From: Chitinophaga pinensis
GTDB lineage: Bacteria; Bacteroidota; Bacteroidia; Flavobacteriales_D; Crocinitomicaceae
Length of the DNA: 64,000 bases
NCBI GenBank assembly: GCA_945902745.1
Contig: CAMDNE010000003.1
Coordinates: 62,001 to 126,000, forward strand
Direction: 5' to 3'
How positions within the stretch are numbered: the first letter of the stretch is position 1; every line of letters begins with the position of its first letter. The position numbers and the translations under genes are program-made. The notes below the pieces were generated by a model. The model was not told where the DNA came from. It did no database searches and was given only the letters and a program-made list of their open reading frames with translations. Shown here in pieces: positions 34,617 through 43,157 of this stretch.

Positions 34617-36164
34617 TTATAAATTGGAAATCTTTTGAATGAAGTTTCCTTTTGACGTTTGAATATGAATAAAGTAGATTCCAGTTGGGTTATTGAATGC
34701 AACTTTATTTTGAATTTGTCCAGTTTGTATCAATTGACCATTAGTAGCATATATTTTATAATTTCCAACCAATTCTGAATTCGATGTAATATACAATTGT
34801 TGTTCTGAAATAAACGCTTTAAACGAAGTTAAACTAACATCTTCTATTCCAAAATTTATATTTACAGTCATTGATACAACAGCTTCATCACATGTAATTG
34901 CCGGTGTGCCAAAATCACAAATGGAATACGTGTAACTATCTAATCCAAAATAACTTGCATTTGGTGTATATGTGATTTCTCCAGTCGCATTGTTTACCGA
35001 TGTTGTGCCGTTTATTGGAGCCACAGTTACGGTTAAAGAAGTTAAATCAATTTGATTTTCAACATCAACATCGTTTGCTACAACATTCGTTACGACAACA
35101 TTATCTATCCATGTAGACTCAACATCGTCATTTGCAATAATTTGGTTGTTTCCAACAATTACTTCTGTTACTGTTACCGTTACAGTAGCATTATCGCACA
35201 AAACTGGTAAACCGTTATCACAAATAGTATATGCATATGAATCAATACCAAACCATCCAGCATTTGGAGTATAAGTAATGATTCCAGTAACGTTGTCAAT
35301 GCTGACATTCCCATTTGTAGGTGGTGTTAAAATAACCAATGAACTTAAGTTTAAATCATTTTCTGGATCTGTGTCATTTAACAATACTGAAACGCCAACA
35401 GCAACATCTTGAAACGTAGATACAGCATCATCATTTGCAACAACAGGTTGATTCACTGGGTTGTATATTAATTCAATATCATCAATCCAAACTTGATCAT
35501 TATCACTACCTCCACCAGGTGTCATATTCGTTGTGAATGTAGCTAGTATATGGGTATTTGTAGCTGCAATACCAGTGTATGTAAAAGGAATGGCTTTTCT
35601 GACCCATGCTCCACTCGTTGTTCCATAATTTAATATCGCTGTTGCGACACAATGTATCCCATCATTCACCTCATTTGGATCTTTAAAATTATAATTATTA
35701 TGTAAAATAATACTTGCTCTAGCTTGACTACCGCCACTTATAGGTGTAAATTTCACCCAGAAAACAATTGAATCTGGTGTATCTGTCAAAGGTTCTGAAA
35801 AATTAACATCGGTTGTTTTGGAATAATTATAATTGGATGAGTTTGCTGGTGTTGTTGAACCCATGTTAATTTGACCAAGTGTTAAATTACCATTAGCGAT
35901 TGTACCTAGAACACTGTTTGACCATATCAAAACTGATTTTGTTCCTGTAGAACCAGGTCTCACACTTGTAGACCAATCCATTTGCTGACCAGCGAAAGTA
36001 TTCCATGTTCCAGAAGCAGTCATAAAACTGTTCCAATTGATCGGTTCATGTGTTTCAGATGAACTAGCCTCCCAAGATTCAAAATTAGAATTCCCAATCT
36101 GCTGTTGAGAAAATGATATAAATGAAAATAGCAATCCGTTGATAATAAGTAATGTTTTTTTCAT
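34617..36164 (-). CDS. T9SS surface protein with two tandem cadherin-like domains
   Basis: A 515-residue exported protein. The signal ends SFISFSQ. An N-terminal carbohydrate-binding-like or PCMD-type domain (~20-215; NSNFESWEASSSETHEPINW) is followed by two tandem Ig/cadherin-like repeats (~235-330, ~335-430) with matching motifs VLLNDTDPENDLNLSSL / NDVDVENQIDLTSLTV and GIITYTPNAGWFGIDSYAYT / GEITYTPNASYFGLDSYTYS. A type A sorting tail completes it (~445-515). Such repeats usually bind calcium and stretch the molecule; adhesion is likely. It is monocistronic, with a terminator directly downstream. Confidence 0.85.
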   Translation of the reverse strand: MKKTLLIINGLLFSFISFSQQQIGNSNFESWEASSSETHEPINWNSFMTASGTWNTFAGQQMDWSTSVRPGSTGTKSVLIWSNSVLGTIANGNLTLGQINMGSTTPANSSNYNYSKTTDVNFSEPLTDTPDSIVFWVKFTPISGGSQARASIILHNNYNFKDPNEVNDGIHCVATAILNYGTTSGAWVRKAIPFTYTGIAATNTHILATFTTNMTPGGGSDNDQVWIDDIELIYNPVNQPVVANDDAVSTFQDVAVGVSVLLNDTDPENDLNLSSLVILTPPTNGNVSIDNVTGIITYTPNAGWFGIDSYAYTICDNGLPVLCDNATVTVTVTEVIVGNNQIIANDDVESTWIDNVVVTNVVANDVDVENQIDLTSLTVTVAPINGTTSVNNATGEITYTPNASYFGLDSYTYSICDFGTPAITCDEAVVSMTVNINFGIEDVSLTSFKAFISEQQLYITSNSELVGNYKIYATNGQLIQTGQIQNKVAFNNPTGIYFIHIQTSKGNFIQKISNL

Positions 36165-36330: not shown

Positions 36331-36681
36331 ATGAAAGTTAAAAACATACAAGAGATGAATGAGGCAGTTTTCATTCTTCGCCATTTCATAGACTTAAGTG
36401 CACGACTATTGCCGCTTTTGTACAAATTAGATCAAAAAATAACACCTTCAATAGAAGACATTCGTGATAAAGAAAAGATTTTAACAGTATTTCGAACCTA
36501 TAATTTTGAAACGAAAACGTCGGAACTTCTTCTAGAATCGAATATTTTAGATTTAATTCGAGATTGCTATTCCAATATTACCAAAGAAGATCTTTTCATC
36601 AATAAACAAGTTTCATTAACCAATTTTTTAACAGAATATAATCGTTTAAAAAATAATTGGAGAATTGTAGAAAATAATTAA
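36331..36681 (+). CDS. Small hypothetical protein
   Basis: A 116-residue, mostly helical and charged protein without signal peptide or membrane segment. I do not recognise it. It lies 20 bases upstream of the truncated Kir channel gene on the same strand, so it may originally have been co-transcribed with it. The ATG at 36331 has no clear TAnnTTTG box immediately upstream. Confidence 0.6.
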   Translation: MKVKNIQEMNEAVFILRHFIDLSARLLPLLYKLDQKITPSIEDIRDKEKILTVFRTYNFETKTSELLLESNILDLIRDCYSNITKEDLFINKQVSLTNFLTEYNRLKNNWRIVENN

Positions 36682-36701: not shown

Positions 36702-36888
36702 ATGAAAAACACGAAAGATCCTGGTCTAGGAAGTAAATTCATCAAACCAGTCAAACGGATGGTGAATGAAGACGGTTCCTACAACATTATTAGAAAAGGT
36801 GGTGTTTCAGGGATAAAAGATTTTTATAAATTCCTTATTGATCTCCACTGGTTTTGGTTTAGTTTAATTCTTATTGGTGCTGAGTTTT
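36702..36888 (+). pseudogene. 5' fragment of an inward-rectifier (Kir-type) K+ channel gene
   Basis: Translation gives ~62 residues that fit a bacterial Kir N terminus: GSYNIIRKGGVSGIKDFYKF corresponds to the conserved slide-helix region, and LIDLHWFWFSLILIGAE to the start of TM1. Homology then ends, where the minus strand begins to read as transposase. The missing part would hold the pore and selectivity filter. The matching C-terminal half is found at 42048-42518. The open frame continues artificially to 36962. Confidence 0.8.
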
Positions 36889-37125
36889 GCTATTTTTTCT
36901 TGAATGTTTTTAACTTTTTCCACCGACTTTTCGTTCAAATCGTTTTGTTCCAGGACAGCTAAATATTCGTTTGTCTTTTCTTCAATATACGCCAAATGTC
37001 GTTCTATTTTTTTTGGACTATAGTTACTCTTTTTGCTGTTGTTTGCCCGTACTTTTGTTCCATCCATGGCTACAACTTCACCTGTTATTAACTGCGCATC
37101 TTTCAAAAACAGTACAAAAAGTTTG
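36885..37125 (-). mobile_element. Internal fragment of an IS1182-like transposase
   Basis: Minus strand reads LITGEVVAMDGTKVRANNSK, then YSPKKIERHLAYIEEKTNEY and a coiled stretch ending EKIAKL, typical of the middle of an IS1182-type transposase. Neither end of the transposase nor terminal repeats are present, so it is a relic of about 240 bases, fused in frame to the radical SAM fragment to its right. Family name from memory of the motif pattern. Confidence 0.72.
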
Positions 37126-37265
37126 AAAGTGGTTTTTTTATTCTCCGATTCTTCGTCTGGATGAAATTCATGGAAATCTTCACCCATTTCGGTTTTTAAA
37201 AAACGATTGGTGGGATTGATGAGTGCACCTCTTCCAGTACTAGTATGGAGTTGTTTTTTGGACAT
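37125..37265 (-). pseudogene. 5' fragment of a PA0069-type radical SAM gene
   Basis: The ATG at 37265 opens a frame with STGRGALINPTNRFLKTEM, which is the characteristic N terminus of PA0069-family radical SAM proteins, ending after about 45 residues at ENKKTTF. The cysteine motif for the iron-sulphur cluster is absent. The frame then runs into the transposase relic. Confidence 0.7.
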
Positions 37266-37291
37266 GGATATCTACTTGCTACAAATATCCT

Positions 37292-37320
37292 AAATAATAA
37301 TCAATTAATGATTATTATTT
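37292..37320 (-). terminator. Palindromic hairpin downstream of the gliding-type protein
   Basis: AAATAATAATCA (37292-37303) pairs with TGATTATTATTT (37309-37320), a 12-bp A/T-rich stem with a 5-base loop, 22 bases past the stop of the gene at 37342. Confidence 0.6.
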
Positions 37321-37341
37321 AATCAAAAACATCCAATTCAA

Positions 37342-40206
37342 TTAGCGAATTAACGATACATGCCCTGTTTTTTCAATAATTGATGCAGCTGTACAAACTG
37401 TTTTATAAGTGACTTTCCAGCTATAGAGATCTTGTTTTGCAGGTAGTCCATTGTACCTTCCATCCCAAAATCCATTCATGTCAGTAGTTTCATATATCAA
37501 TTCGCCCCATCGGTTGTATATTTCCAGAGTAATCGAAGTAATATTGTCTCCTTTTACCGCAAAAACATCGTTGTTTCCATCGTCATTTGGCGTAAAGCTA
37601 TTTGGAATGTACAAAACACCTCCACCAAGTGTTCCGTGAATTGTAATACTATCAGAAAGTACACAACCACTGATCGTTGCAACGACCCAATATGTTCCTT
37701 CTTCTATAATGGAAATGAGTTGTGTTGTATCACCAGTAGACCAAAGATAAACCGCTCCTGGAATTCCACCATCAAGTGTAAAATTGAGATCGTCGCATAA
37801 ATTTTGATTCACATTCCAATGAATAGGTTGAATACTTTGGACAACCGTGGTGTCATATAGAATACATTGCTGATTGCTAACAATTACAGAATACACACCA
37901 GCACTTGTTACGGTAATCGTTTGACTGACTGATCCTGTATTCCAGAGATAGCTAGTTGCAGGTGTATTGGCATCTAATTGTAGTTGATTTCCAGGGCATA
38001 GTGTTGTGTCTGACACTAAATTGGTAGACGGGTAAGGGATAATCGTCAAATCAATGGAATCACTGACACTGCACGAACCTGAAGTTACTTGAACCCAATA
38101 GATTCCTGAGGAATTAGCTGTAATTGTTGGACTAGTTGCTCCCGTATTCCAATTATAACTCCCATTACTAGAAGTAGCATCTAAAACGATGGAATTGGAC
38201 ACACAAACAGATGTATCATTTCCTAAGTTGACCGCTAAATGATCGATTTGAACTTGAATGGTATCAGAGGCAGTACATCCACCATTATTTACCGTTACTG
38301 AATAAATTCCACTTTGATTGATTGTCACTTGCTGTGTTGTTTCTCCAGTTGACCAGCTATACGTATAACCTGTTCCAGCATCTAATAGAAGTGTTGAATT
38401 ACAGATGGTAGTGTCATTTCCTAAATTGACGCTTGCTAATGTTTGAACGAGAATGGTTACTTGTGTTGTATCACTTTCTCCTAGAAAATCTGTCGCAATA
38501 ACGGTATACATTGTTGTTGCTAATGGACAAATAGTAATAGGACCTGCAGTTGTTGCAGTAATCCCATTGTCCCATTGATAAGTATAAGGGGCAACGCCAC
38601 CAGTTGTTAGCGCAGTTAAATCGGTACAATCACCTAAACAAATGGTATCGCTCGGAACCGTTACACTTACACCACAATCGATCACAACTTGCTGAACAAT
38701 TGTATCTGCATCCCACGTACAGTTTTGTACAATCAATGTTACATCATAAGTACCTGAACTAGTAAAAGTATGGATTGGATGTTGAAGCGTATCTTGATTG
38801 GCACTTCCGCTTGTTGGATCACCAAAATCCCAATGCCAAGAATGGATGTTATTACAACCAGAACTACTTAGGTCTGTAAAGGTGGTTATGGGACAATTTG
38901 TAGTGCTTGTAAATAAAGCTTGCACGTCGTCTGGAGTATAAAGCCATAAATGATGTGAGGGAGTTCCAGCAGTGTTTTCGCCACCTGCCATCCAAAAACC
39001 TTGATCTGTCTGCCACCGCTGTGCTCCAGCAATTGGAGTAGGGGTATTAATTGGCGAAGGTATTCCCATTGTTCCAAAAACACCTGGTGTAGTTCCTCCT
39101 CGAATCCACGCCCAATTATTTGTAATAGGATTGTAGCGCCACAAATCATTATACATAGTAGCAACATCTGTATAGCGGGCTCCACCAAACACCCATAAAT
39201 TGTCGCATGCATCAACCCATCTCATGCGCATTTCAGTGCGTGGGGTTGGAAATCCACTTGGAGTCTCCACGCATTGACTCGGATAAGCTTGATTTGCAAA
39301 GAATACCGATAAATCTGCCCGTTTGCAATTCCATTGATTCAATATTGGCGAATACACCCAAATTTCTTCGTTGACATTTGCACCTAGATCGCGGTTTACA
39401 ATCATGTATAAGTTGTCTTGTGAATCATTCCACATTGTAAATAATGTACCAACCATTGGAGATCCAGCAAATGATCCCGGCTGATTTGCAGCAGCATAGG
39501 AACCAATTGTCCCGTAAACAGGTCCCGATCCAATGTTTCCTTTGATCCACGTCCACATATTGGTTGCAATGTCGTATTTCCATAAAATGCCATCATCATG
39601 GGTGAATAGCCACAAATTGTTGTTTGAATCGACCCAATTACAATCAACTTCATTCAATGGTCCAGGAGAATTCCCCGCATTTGGAACTCCTTGTGTTCCG
39701 TAAACTGCTGGATTAAATCCGCCACCGCTTCCTTTTATCCATACCCATGTGTTCGCTGCAATATCGTATTTCCAGAGGTCATCAGAGAAATCTATTCCGT
39801 AAAGCCACAAGTTCCCGTTGTTGTCTTTCCAAGCTGGATGGCCAAACCGTGCATTGGATGGATTATTGAGTATTGAAGGAACGCCTTGTGTACCGTAAGT
39901 TGCTGGGACAAACGTGTTAAGCGTTCCATGAATCAGCGCCCATTGATTAATCGCTGGATCGTATTGCCACAAATCAGAATAATCATCACCACCATACCGC
40001 CAGAGTTTCCCATTCGAGTCAGTCCAACAAACAGCTGCATAGCGTTCATTGGGTGAATTAAGCGGAGAGAAAATGCCAGTACCAATAGAATTCAATGGCA
40101 TACTTCCTGCATTTCCCCATTTCCAAGTCCAAGTTCCTTGCGCCGAAATCAAAGAATGATTAAATAGAATCAGAAAGAGGCATGTAATTTGGCGAACTAG
40201 TAACAT
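37342..40206 (-). CDS. Gliding-motility-associated (CHU_C) T9SS surface protein with kelch-like repeats
   Basis: About 954 residues with signal MLLVRQITCLFLILFNHSLI ending at SAQ. Residues ~25-430 contain six to seven kelch-like units (WRYGGDDYSDLWQYDPAINQ; repeated WTWIKG and YGTQGVP). A PKD domain follows (~430-510, HWDFGDPTSG), then tandem SprB-like Ig units with the motif NLGNDTTIC/WSTGETTQ, and a C-terminal type B sorting domain (~860-954, IPNSFTPNDDGNNDVF, YNRWGELIYE). The ATG at 40206 is preferred to a longer frame to 40341. The gene sits inside the Kir insert and looks richer in G+C than its neighbours (one 60-base line, 39481-39540, is 48% GC). Confidence 0.85.
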   Translation of the reverse strand: MLLVRQITCLFLILFNHSLISAQGTWTWKWGNAGSMPLNSIGTGIFSPLNSPNERYAAVCWTDSNGKLWRYGGDDYSDLWQYDPAINQWALIHGTLNTFVPATYGTQGVPSILNNPSNARFGHPAWKDNNGNLWLYGIDFSDDLWKYDIAANTWVWIKGSGGGFNPAVYGTQGVPNAGNSPGPLNEVDCNWVDSNNNLWLFTHDDGILWKYDIATNMWTWIKGNIGSGPVYGTIGSYAAANQPGSFAGSPMVGTLFTMWNDSQDNLYMIVNRDLGANVNEEIWVYSPILNQWNCKRADLSVFFANQAYPSQCVETPSGFPTPRTEMRMRWVDACDNLWVFGGARYTDVATMYNDLWRYNPITNNWAWIRGGTTPGVFGTMGIPSPINTPTPIAGAQRWQTDQGFWMAGGENTAGTPSHHLWLYTPDDVQALFTSTTNCPITTFTDLSSSGCNNIHSWHWDFGDPTSGSANQDTLQHPIHTFTSSGTYDVTLIVQNCTWDADTIVQQVVIDCGVSVTVPSDTICLGDCTDLTALTTGGVAPYTYQWDNGITATTAGPITICPLATTMYTVIATDFLGESDTTQVTILVQTLASVNLGNDTTICNSTLLLDAGTGYTYSWSTGETTQQVTINQSGIYSVTVNNGGCTASDTIQVQIDHLAVNLGNDTSVCVSNSIVLDATSSNGSYNWNTGATSPTITANSSGIYWVQVTSGSCSVSDSIDLTIIPYPSTNLVSDTTLCPGNQLQLDANTPATSYLWNTGSVSQTITVTSAGVYSVIVSNQQCILYDTTVVQSIQPIHWNVNQNLCDDLNFTLDGGIPGAVYLWSTGDTTQLISIIEEGTYWVVATISGCVLSDSITIHGTLGGGVLYIPNSFTPNDDGNNDVFAVKGDNITSITLEIYNRWGELIYETTDMNGFWDGRYNGLPAKQDLYSWKVTYKTVCTAASIIEKTGHVSLIR

Positions 40207-40344
40207 ATTCGTTATTGTTTTCTGCAAATGTACACTCATCGAACACGATATTCCAAAAAATAGGGTGTGACATAATAAGGACAGGTGTTTTATTAATTGA
40301 TTGTAAATCAGTTGATTTTTGATTATTATTTCAGATTTCACCTA

Positions 40345-42006
40345 TTACAACTGAATAATATATGTTTTCATATCTATTTCAGTTGTAAGACCCAGTTTCT
40401 TTTTCAAACGTACACGTGATTTTTGAACACTATCGGGATTGATATTCAAAAGTGAACCAATCTCTTTGGTGTTTAAGCCTATTTTCATATACGCACAATG
40501 GCGAATATCAGTACTTGTGAGATCAGGATTTAATTGATGCAAGCGATTGAAAAAATCAGGATAAGTGGTTTCTAGTTTAAAGCGGAATTTATCCCAATCG
40601 TTTTCAGATGCATTCATTTTCTTCATAAAAGACTGCATTTTTGCCTCTACTGCTGATAAGGATTCTTTGGACCCTAAATTAAATGCACTTTCGAGTTCTT
40701 CTTCAAAACGCGTAATTGTTTCTATTTTTCGAAGTGATTGCATCGTCAATGAAACTAGTTCAGCATTTTTTAATTGCAATTCATCTCTTAAACGACTATT
40801 CTCTAATTCCTTGATATGTTGTTTATCTAGAAGTGCTTTTTCTTGTTGCTTGTGATTGAAGTCTTTTAATCGTGCATTTCGGTATAAATAAAAGACGATA
40901 AAAATCAAACAAATGGCTGTGATAATTAATGAATAAAGCTTAATGCTCTTGTAATTCATTTCTGTTTCCAGCGAAGAGATTTTGGATTTAGAAATCAGTA
41001 ATTGTTGTTCCTTTTTCTCCAAATCGAAAAGCACACGAAGTACAGCAATTCTTTTTTCTGAAGCAAGTGTATTAAGCTGTTGATTAAGTTGTCCAAACTG
41101 CATCAATGATTCGAAAGCTTGTGCATTTTTACCTTGTTTTTTTTGTGCAATGGATAGATTGTAATAAGCACTTGCTTGAAGGGAAGGAATGTTGAGTTGT
41201 TCTAATTCACGTAAGCAGCTATCAAAGTAAATTTCTCCCTTTTCATAGTCTTTGATATGCATATAATATTCCCCAATATTAAGATAAGAGTTGGCAATTC
41301 CAGCTTTAGAATGGATGTTCTGTTTAATTTTCAGTGACTCAAAAAAGTATCCTTTTGCTTTGGTGTTTTCTTCTGTTTCCATGTACAGTGAACCAATGTT
41401 GTTCAACGTTTTTGAAACGCCAATAAAATCACGAAGTTGTTTTTTTAGTTCAAGAGATTGTTCATAAACAACCAATGCACGTTCTCGATCTCCGCTATTT
41501 TGCAAAGAAATACCATAGTTGTTATAAGCCGCGGCTAGCAATTCTTTTCGTTTAGAAACGGTTATTTTTTTTGTAGAATTGAGTGTTTTGATTACTTGTT
41601 TAAAGAGCTGTTTACCTGCAGCGTACTTACCTGTTTCATTGTAAAATTGACCAATATTTATTTCTGAACCAATCAAATGTACGGTATCTTTTGTGCGCTC
41701 AAAGTACTTTCTAGATGCATAAAAATTCTCCAAGGCTTTATCATAGATAGCTAGTTGTTTATAAATTAGCCCAATGAGATTTTTTGTTTTAGCAACATAA
41801 TACCCATTTTTTGTTTCATCGAAAAGAGTCAATGCTTTATCGAAATAGTAAAGTGCAGAATCTGTTTGCTCATATTCGAAGAGCTTAAGCCCATATTCGT
41901 AGTCCTGCATTGCCAGCCTATTTTTAGAACTAACAGCATTCGATTTGTCTTGTGCAAAAACAGTAAACGTGCTAAAAAAGCAAATGAAAGAAATGAGTTT
42001 AATCAT
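40345..42006 (-). CDS. TPR sensor with LuxR-type HTH regulator
   Basis: A 553-residue protein: signal or membrane segment MIKLISFICFFSTFTVFAQ, six or more tetratricopeptide repeats (~30-300), a transmembrane helix (~340-365), a coiled coil, and a C-terminal LuxR-like helix-turn-helix (~480-553; SSTDIRHCAYMKIGLNTKEI-like region, LLNINPDSVQKSRVRLKKKL). This is a one-component membrane regulator layout common in Bacteroidota. The start is the ATG at 42006: an in-frame ATG at 42054 lies across the boundary with the Kir remnant. It follows the kelch-like protein's gene in the minus direction (139 bases upstream of it) and may regulate it. Confidence 0.82.
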   Translation of the reverse strand: MIKLISFICFFSTFTVFAQDKSNAVSSKNRLAMQDYEYGLKLFEYEQTDSALYYFDKALTLFDETKNGYYVAKTKNLIGLIYKQLAIYDKALENFYASRKYFERTKDTVHLIGSEINIGQFYNETGKYAAGKQLFKQVIKTLNSTKKITVSKRKELLAAAYNNYGISLQNSGDRERALVVYEQSLELKKQLRDFIGVSKTLNNIGSLYMETEENTKAKGYFFESLKIKQNIHSKAGIANSYLNIGEYYMHIKDYEKGEIYFDSCLRELEQLNIPSLQASAYYNLSIAQKKQGKNAQAFESLMQFGQLNQQLNTLASEKRIAVLRVLFDLEKKEQQLLISKSKISSLETEMNYKSIKLYSLIITAICLIFIVFYLYRNARLKDFNHKQQEKALLDKQHIKELENSRLRDELQLKNAELVSLTMQSLRKIETITRFEEELESAFNLGSKESLSAVEAKMQSFMKKMNASENDWDKFRFKLETTYPDFFNRLHQLNPDLTSTDIRHCAYMKIGLNTKEIGSLLNINPDSVQKSRVRLKKKLGLTTEIDMKTYIIQL

Positions 42007-42047
42007 AATTCTGGTGATAAACTTAGTGAAAAACAGGCGGTTTAGAA

Positions 42048-42518
42048 ATTGCATTTTCAAAAAATATTATCATTACTCCTCACGAAGAATCGATGGCAGT
42101 TATGTTCAAAATGGTCAATCAACGAAAAAATGTATTACTCAATACTACAATAAAGTGCATTTTCATCATTGACAAAGGTACTGGTCAAATGGCTTTCAAT
42201 AAAGATTATTCAGAACTGAAACTAGAATCTGATCAAGTAAATTTCTTTCCGTTAACATGGACACTCGTTCATAAAATAACGGAAGATTCGCCTTTATTTA
42301 ATATTGGCTTCGATGAACTTGTTAATCGACATGCTGAAGTCATTATTTTAGTTGAAACATTTGATGAAACATTTAGTCAGACAATACTCCAAAAACATTC
42401 GTACGCTTCTGAACAATGGTTGGAAAATGTGAAATTCGAAAGAAATTTTGAAGCAAACGAACGCGGACACATTGAATTAAATGTTCGAGATATTAATCGT
42501 TACTCATCGATAAATTAG
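42048..42518 (+). pseudogene. 3' fragment of the Kir-type K+ channel gene (cytoplasmic domain)
   Basis: Reading in the frame of the ATG at 42093 but extending upstream, the sequence AFSKNIIITPHEESMAVMFK is like the start of the Kir cytoplasmic domain. VNFFPLTWTLVHKITEDSPL and the VETFDETFSQTILQKHSYAS segment are strong Kir C-domain hallmarks. Only the internal ATG at 42093 could initiate translation, giving a 141-residue piece without membrane segments. The pair with 36702-36888 lacks the pore, so no channel can be made from either piece. Confidence 0.82.
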
Positions 42519-42533: not shown

Positions 42534-43157
42534 ATGCAGGTTAAAGACATTGATTCAACTTCCGTTTTACCAGTAATGGAATATTTCTATACCATCCAAG
42601 GGGAAGGATTTTATTCTGGTAGGGCTGCTTTTTTTATACGTCTGGCTGGTTGCGATGTTGGCTGTGTTTGGTGCGATGTCAAAGAAAGTTGGGATGTAAA
42701 TGATCATCCATTAGTTACGTTAGATTTTCTGGAAAAAGAAGTTGTTACATCTGGAACAAATTTCGTTGTTATAACCGGAGGTGAGCCTGCAATGTACGAT
42801 CTTTCAACATTGATTACTCGACTGAAAACTCATGAAATAGAAGTGGCTATTGAAACATCTGGAACGTATAAGTTGATTGGAGACATTGATTGGTATTGCT
42901 TTTCACCTAAGAAATTTAAAGAACCAATTGAAGAAGCTTATAAAAAGGCGAACGAATTAAAAATCATTATTAATCATCCATCCGATTTTGAATGGGCAGA
43001 AATGCATGCTTCAAAAGTTGACTCAAATTGTAAATTATACCTTCAACCTGAATGGTCAAAACAGGAACGGTTTTTGCCAACCATCATTGATTTTGTGAAA
43101 AAACATCCCAAATGGCGAATTTCTTTACAAACCCATAAATTCATGAATATTCCATAA
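42534..43157 (+). CDS. queE: 7-carboxy-7-deazaguanine synthase
   Basis: A 207-residue radical SAM enzyme that converts 6-carboxytetrahydropterin to 7-carboxy-7-deazaguanine in queuosine synthesis. YTIQGEGFYSGRAAFFIRLA precedes the cluster cysteines in CDVGCVWCDVKESW. VITGGEPAMYD follows, then the later IETSG and FSPKK motifs. The cysteine spacing here is CxxxCxxC, as in the family. It leads a probable operon with the PorE-like gene (2 bases after), UbiA-type and maf genes. It probably lost an upstream neighbour, the Kir channel gene. Confidence 0.96.
   Translation: MQVKDIDSTSVLPVMEYFYTIQGEGFYSGRAAFFIRLAGCDVGCVWCDVKESWDVNDHPLVTLDFLEKEVVTSGTNFVVITGGEPAMYDLSTLITRLKTHEIEVAIETSGTYKLIGDIDWYCFSPKKFKEPIEEAYKKANELKIIINHPSDFEWAEMHASKVDSNCKLYLQPEWSKQERFLPTIIDFVKKHPKWRISLQTHKFMNIP

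Follow-up and report, generated by a model that had tools for sequence, protein, structure and literature searches.

Probable replacement of the pore region of a Kir-type channel gene by genus-foreign DNA in an assembly of Chitinophaga pinensis

Introduction

Homology-facilitated illegitimate recombination is a route by which foreign DNA enters a genome through one homologous and one illegitimate end, insertion being coupled to deletion; the excerpt of the published account that is drawn on here cites cases in Acinetobacter and Pseudomonas stutzeri (PMC3240628). The locus presented below is compared with this route, with the KirBac channels and with the IS1182 insertion sequences. A limited literature search on KirBac pseudogenes, Flavobacteria and horizontal gene transfer, and on inward rectifiers of Bacteroidetes, returned nothing relevant, and a similarly limited one on the T9SS/LuxR pair described below had the same result.

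The DNA analysed, hereafter the window, is a stretch of 64,000 nucleotides from Chitinophaga pinensis (GCA_945902745.1, contig CAMDNE010000003.1, positions 62,001-126,000, forward strand). Within it a Kir-type potassium channel gene (kir) has very probably been broken, about 262 bp of the gene having been replaced by 5.16 kb of genus-foreign DNA.

Two fragments of one kir gene

The locus lies between two anchors on the plus strand. The left one (36331-36681) encodes a protein of 116 aa that matches no Pfam or NCBIfam family. The right one (42534-43157) carries the Pfam domain Radical_SAM and is presumably queE, a name adopted from the first-pass annotation of this DNA. That annotation had also placed here two pieces of a Kir gene on the same strand, about 5.2 kb apart and with the pore missing. 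Both pieces are present: 36702-36877 and the stretch from 42041/42042 to 42518 are, on sequence comparison, parts of one Kir-type gene on the plus strand, and the gap between them measures about 5,164 bp. The N-terminal range had been drawn to 36888; Kir homology holds as far as 36877, but the last 11 bases belong to the insert.

The 5' fragment (36702-36877) extends from the start codon to codon 59, includes the first half of TM1 and aligns to kir bases 1-176 of two same-genus genomes (G006 and G023). On its own it is weak, with no Pfam family and a best PDB match of 0.021, which is to a Kir channel; compared with the intact kir of the relatives (G006, 96.7% identity over 60 aa; G023, 91.5% over 59 aa) it is read with certainty as Kir. 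The 3' fragment (42042-42518, aligned from kir base 439 of G006) encodes the cytoplasmic domain, with a match to Pfam IRK_C (PF17655, 5.3e-18) and an alignment to residues 143-268 of KirBac3.1 (3.6e-11); its first in-frame start codon is an internal ATG at 42093. That the two pieces come from one protein and not from two is borne out by their alignment to a single kir in each of G006, G023, G002 and G008. In the genome to which the window belongs, a second IRK_C match was not found, and a 90-aa pore query from G006 recovered no kir pore, the only match (E 0.03) being to a different channel.

Intact kir in related genomes

In four same-genus genomes (G002, G006, G008 and G023) kir is a single open gene that follows the 116-aa gene and precedes queE. 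In G002 and in G008 one contig carries the whole order, with kir (304 aa) after the 116-aa gene and queE directly behind it; the contig of G023 comprises the 116-aa gene, kir (304 aa) and queE up to codon 51. The locus of G006 is split: one contig ends after the 116-aa gene and 301 open codons of kir, and the next continues into queE. All four proteins contain the TTVGYG motif, read from their sequence, and exceed the cut-offs of IRK_C and Ion_trans_2; the IRK model is over its cut-off in three of them, G008 remaining just under it (22.5 vs 22.7 bits). The 116-aa gene is 87-91% identical to that of the window in G006 and G023, and 66-67% in G002 and G008; it also precedes queE where kir is absent (G003, G013 and G018).

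Of the 14 kir loci fetched from outside the genus, 7 (G029, G032, G033, G034, G035, G045 and G046) have queE immediately after kir and in the same orientation. Since this order is found there and the gene is intact within the genus, the ancestral state was likely one kir gene upstream of queE. The earlier proposal of one such gene, cut by an insertion plus a deletion, is supported by these loci: the comparison with sister genomes did find an intact kir-queE neighbourhood, on one contig in G002 and G008, and instead of two separate genes the kir-bearing relatives have one, apart from the differently damaged copy of G021.

Four draft genomes of relatives have contig ends inside kir or at the start of queE: G006 (L025, L245), G014 (L026, L027), G023 (L024, L246) and G021 (L243, L244). 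The two contigs of G006 share 149 identical bases, those of G014, over which kir is spread, overlap by 95 identical bases, and in G023 the overlap is of 20 identical bases; these contig ends and overlaps may reflect strain variation at the locus.

The lesion

The DNA of the window is colinear with G006 and G023 up to 36877. The DNA match with G002 and G008 stops at 36799, the protein match carrying on to codon 60, and colinearity resumes at 42041-42046 in all four. Where the window has 5,164 bp (36878-42041) G006 has 262 bp of kir, and where it has 5,168 bp G023 has 266 bp. The loss of the pore region is thereby confirmed, but its size, first put at about 100 codons, comes down to about 262 bp (87 codons). 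The absent bases, approximately 177-438 in the numbering of G006, correspond to the second half of TM1, the pore helix, the TVGYG filter and TM2, an assignment based on the known Kir layout and on Pfam matches in the kir of the relatives rather than on a topology program. The channel is predicted to be non-functional, since it would lack the selectivity filter and TM2 together with half of TM1.

At codons where G006 and G023 agree, the C part (153 codons) has acquired 3 non-synonymous and 13 synonymous changes on the window branch, and the N part (58 codons) 0 and 5. The corresponding counts are 4/15 and 0/9 on the branch of G006, and 8/14 and 4/7 on that of G023. Because there is no excess of amino-acid changes on the window branch, the fragments appear free of visible decay, so that the break would be recent or the fragments too short to tell; this fits a recent break and is no proof of one.

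Gene content of the insert

Two genes, both on the minus strand, occupy most of the insert. The first (37342-40206) encodes a T9SS-type kelch/PKD protein with a CHU_C type B sorting domain (Pfam CHU_C, 3.8e-15, PKD_4 and Kelch_4; TIGR04131). Its start codon was picked by eye at a signal-peptide-like stretch, the open reading frame reaching 40341. The second (40345-42006) encodes a putative regulator, a TPR protein (TPR_12, 2.8e-22) with a C-terminal LuxR-type helix-turn-helix whose GerE match (9.6e-4) is below the curated cut-off; the start codon given is an inferred one in an open reading frame that reaches 42060, and a hydrophobic stretch was spotted by eye.

No orthologue of the regulator was found in 16 other same-genus genomes, the best match being 23% identical over most of the length (G014), nor among the same-genus genomes in an order-wide search at E <= 1e-25; in the 399 genomes of the order the best relative comes from G140, at 33% identity. 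For the kelch propeller, the only relatives at E <= 1e-50 in 240 genomes of the family are those of G140 (50%) and G149 (47%), none being found in the genus genomes included in that search. A kelch relative in G299 (37%) is missing from this list, possibly as it is outside the 240 genomes or was missed. At the DNA level, the window matches G021, G006, G023, G002 and G008 outside the insert only. These absences from the genus are not absolute, because many of its genomes are incomplete drafts.

Genomes from three other genera of the family (G140, G149 and G299, 30-46% identity) have the two genes as neighbours. The regulator is directly upstream of the kelch gene in G140 and G149, as in the window, and the adjacent genes of G299 stand in the opposite order. 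The loci of these three genera at which a TPR/LuxR-type regulator adjoins a T9SS-type kelch/PKD protein are L168 (4466-9303), L169 (4009-8825) and L170 (7584-12439). No propeller relative was found in the DNA fetched around another 13 regulator loci.

The left end of the insert consists of debris on the minus strand. Positions 36878-37145, which abut the kir break, hold an internal fragment of an IS1182-family transposase with both ends missing. The fragment matches positions 118-195 of the 488 of NF033551 (2.8e-11), with a score below the family cut-off, as expected of a fragment, and it is 46% identical over 96 columns to a 539-aa transposase of G003, the homology extending to the kir junction. 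In frame with it, 37125-37265 encode the first 42 or so codons of a PA0069-family radical SAM gene, 58% identical over 38 aa to a PA0069 protein of G058. The two homologies overlap by about 20 bases at the in-frame join (37125-37145), possibly a short-homology join. The PA0069 family model has matches in 14 of the 60 genomes searched and in none of the 26 same-genus ones, the window's own included. No further IS1182 match was found in the window's own genome, and the family cut-off is passed in one (G003) of the 26 same-genus genomes; a simple script detected no terminal inverted repeats at the copy of G003. At the insert itself, the 20 of 34 direct repeat families and 25 of 38 inverted pairs listed include none that pairs the two edges. 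The first-pass annotation had seen neither an intact element nor terminal repeats at the edges: no edge-pairing repeat appears among those listed, but the left edge does carry a truncated IS1182 fragment. As judged from its sequence, this fragment is no mobile element now, and the insert as a whole reads as debris accompanied by a linked pair that other genera of the family also have.

The composition of the insert gives weak support to a foreign origin. Its GC content, 37.30%, is just above the maximum of 37.26% reached by 118 slid windows, a part of them overlapping the insert; the excess is driven by the kelch gene (40.4%), and the insert's tetranucleotide distance is reached by 4 of the 118.

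Origin of the insert

The kir break is best explained by a foreign piece of 5.16 kb that would have brought in the pair of regulator and T9SS-type protein, together with PA0069/IS1182 debris at one end. Its integration would have been an insertion coupled to a deletion, by illegitimate, homology-facilitated illegitimate or IS-assisted recombination. Such an import fits the locus, because the gene content was not found in the genus, the ends are asymmetric and host DNA has been lost. For this inferred route, homology-facilitated illegitimate recombination, as outlined in the part of the published account consulted (PMC3240628), is the closest one described, with IS1182 as a candidate anchor.

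A close donor of the pair was not found, the best relatives being 30-50% identical. Searches of genome contigs confirmed none by the regulator; by the kelch protein they gave 36 loci with a best segment of at most 42%, and in 33 of the 36 the match begins no earlier than residue 394, beyond most of the propeller. None was confirmed in viral contigs, and the plasmid searches gave 17 and 39 records, all below 60% identity. A move from elsewhere in the own genome was rejected, since among the matches listed there the kelch protein reaches at most 37% and the regulator at most 27%.

The best explanation can be made more specific: kir would already have held an IS1182 copy, and an incoming fragment bearing IS1182 would have recombined with it at one end and been joined by chance at the other, with the deletion of about 262 bp. 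This is favoured by the transposase debris located precisely at the left break and by a right edge formed by the upstream end of the regulator gene; the excerpt consulted couples insertion to deletion through one homologous and one illegitimate end (PMC3240628). This version can nevertheless be held only tentatively: no full anchor is seen, as the transposase fragment is missing its two ends and runs into PA0069 on the side away from kir, and the scarcity of IS1182 in this genome and genus also speaks against it. Slightly less probable, and rather unlikely, is a break at codon 59 that predates the split from G021, the insert having later entered an already broken kir. G021 is without the insert of the window; its contig C27 ends at the equivalent of window position 36876, one base before the last left kir base of the window, and its contig C20 opens with frameshifted kir bases 145-265, after which the sequence resumes at base 813. 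A contig end, however, is not a junction, the N fragment of G021 is little changed, and the kir piece on C20 is differently damaged, without a match to the right break of the window.

An assembly chimera, in which unrelated pieces were joined inside kir, is very unlikely. The region may be hard to assemble, given that contigs of four draft relatives likewise break off within kir or early in queE; against this, a chimera needs both ends of the insert to fall inside one gene of 304 codons with colinear flanks on both sides, and a probe of 421 bases taken from the left end of the insert finds nothing else in the own genome better than E 0.028. It is even harder to credit that the 3' half of kir has been retained as a separate soluble protein. 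The 141 codons open from the internal ATG and the 3/13 ratio of changes on the window branch might suggest it, but these counts resemble those of the intact relatives (4/15 and 8/14), as expected after a recent break; moreover, the reading frame lacks the start of the domain, most of which is lost in G021. The import of genus-foreign DNA coupled to a deletion is retained as the preferred reading.

Loss of kir across the genus

IRK_C is present in 5 of 25 other same-genus genomes. Among 22 same-genus queE loci, 13 have an upstream 515-aa gene (the relative of window 34617-36164) near queE and no kir between, 5 have kir or a remnant of it (G002, G006, G008, G014 and G021), and 4 are uninformative (G009, G020, G022 and G023, the kir of the last being on another contig); the survey left out G011 and G017, with a queE match and no locus, and G015, with no match. 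The closest relative by queE is G021 (95%), in which kir bases 145-175 occur on both C27 and C20 in differing versions (L243 1-240, L244 1-240). Since 13 of the 22 loci are without kir and the kir of G021 is differently damaged, the gene is dispensable in the genus. Contig C23 of the window's genome still encodes a different potassium channel, one that combines Ion_trans_2 with TrkA_N, and the cell may cope without kir through other channels such as this TrkA_N-type one.

It is conceivable, with a low probability, that the interval from the 116-aa gene to queE undergoes recurrent gain and loss: related species would have kir there in an intact form, lack it cleanly or carry it broken at almost the same position, and the regulator and the T9SS-type protein, a patchily distributed pair, would have moved in as a unit. 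Taken together, the locus represents a well-supported yet ordinary disruption of a dispensable gene, the main doubt being the assembly. It offers a clean case of bacterial Kir gene loss within one genus, in which intact, broken and absent states can be compared, and it points to a small transferred unit made of a TPR/LuxR-type regulator and a T9SS kelch protein.

Comparison with known systems

The understanding of Kir channels and of insertions is unchanged by this locus. With regard to the KirBac channels (KirBac3.1, PDB 6o9t/1xl4), the C-terminal cytoplasmic domain of the window aligns with them and its N part matches the intact kir of the relatives, whereas half of TM1, the pore helix, the TVGYG filter and TM2 are missing. 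The likeness to IS1182 insertion sequences (NF033551) resides in the transposase fragment at the left edge of the insert, which covers about 80 of 488 positions and, unlike a full DDE transposase, lacks both ends. Homology-facilitated illegitimate recombination, as far as the excerpt of PMC3240628 describes it, shares with this locus the entry of foreign DNA, the loss of host DNA and the asymmetric ends; it differs in size, with about 1 kb each on average vs about 5.2 kb in and 0.26 kb out here, and in the intact anchor, none having been identified in the window.
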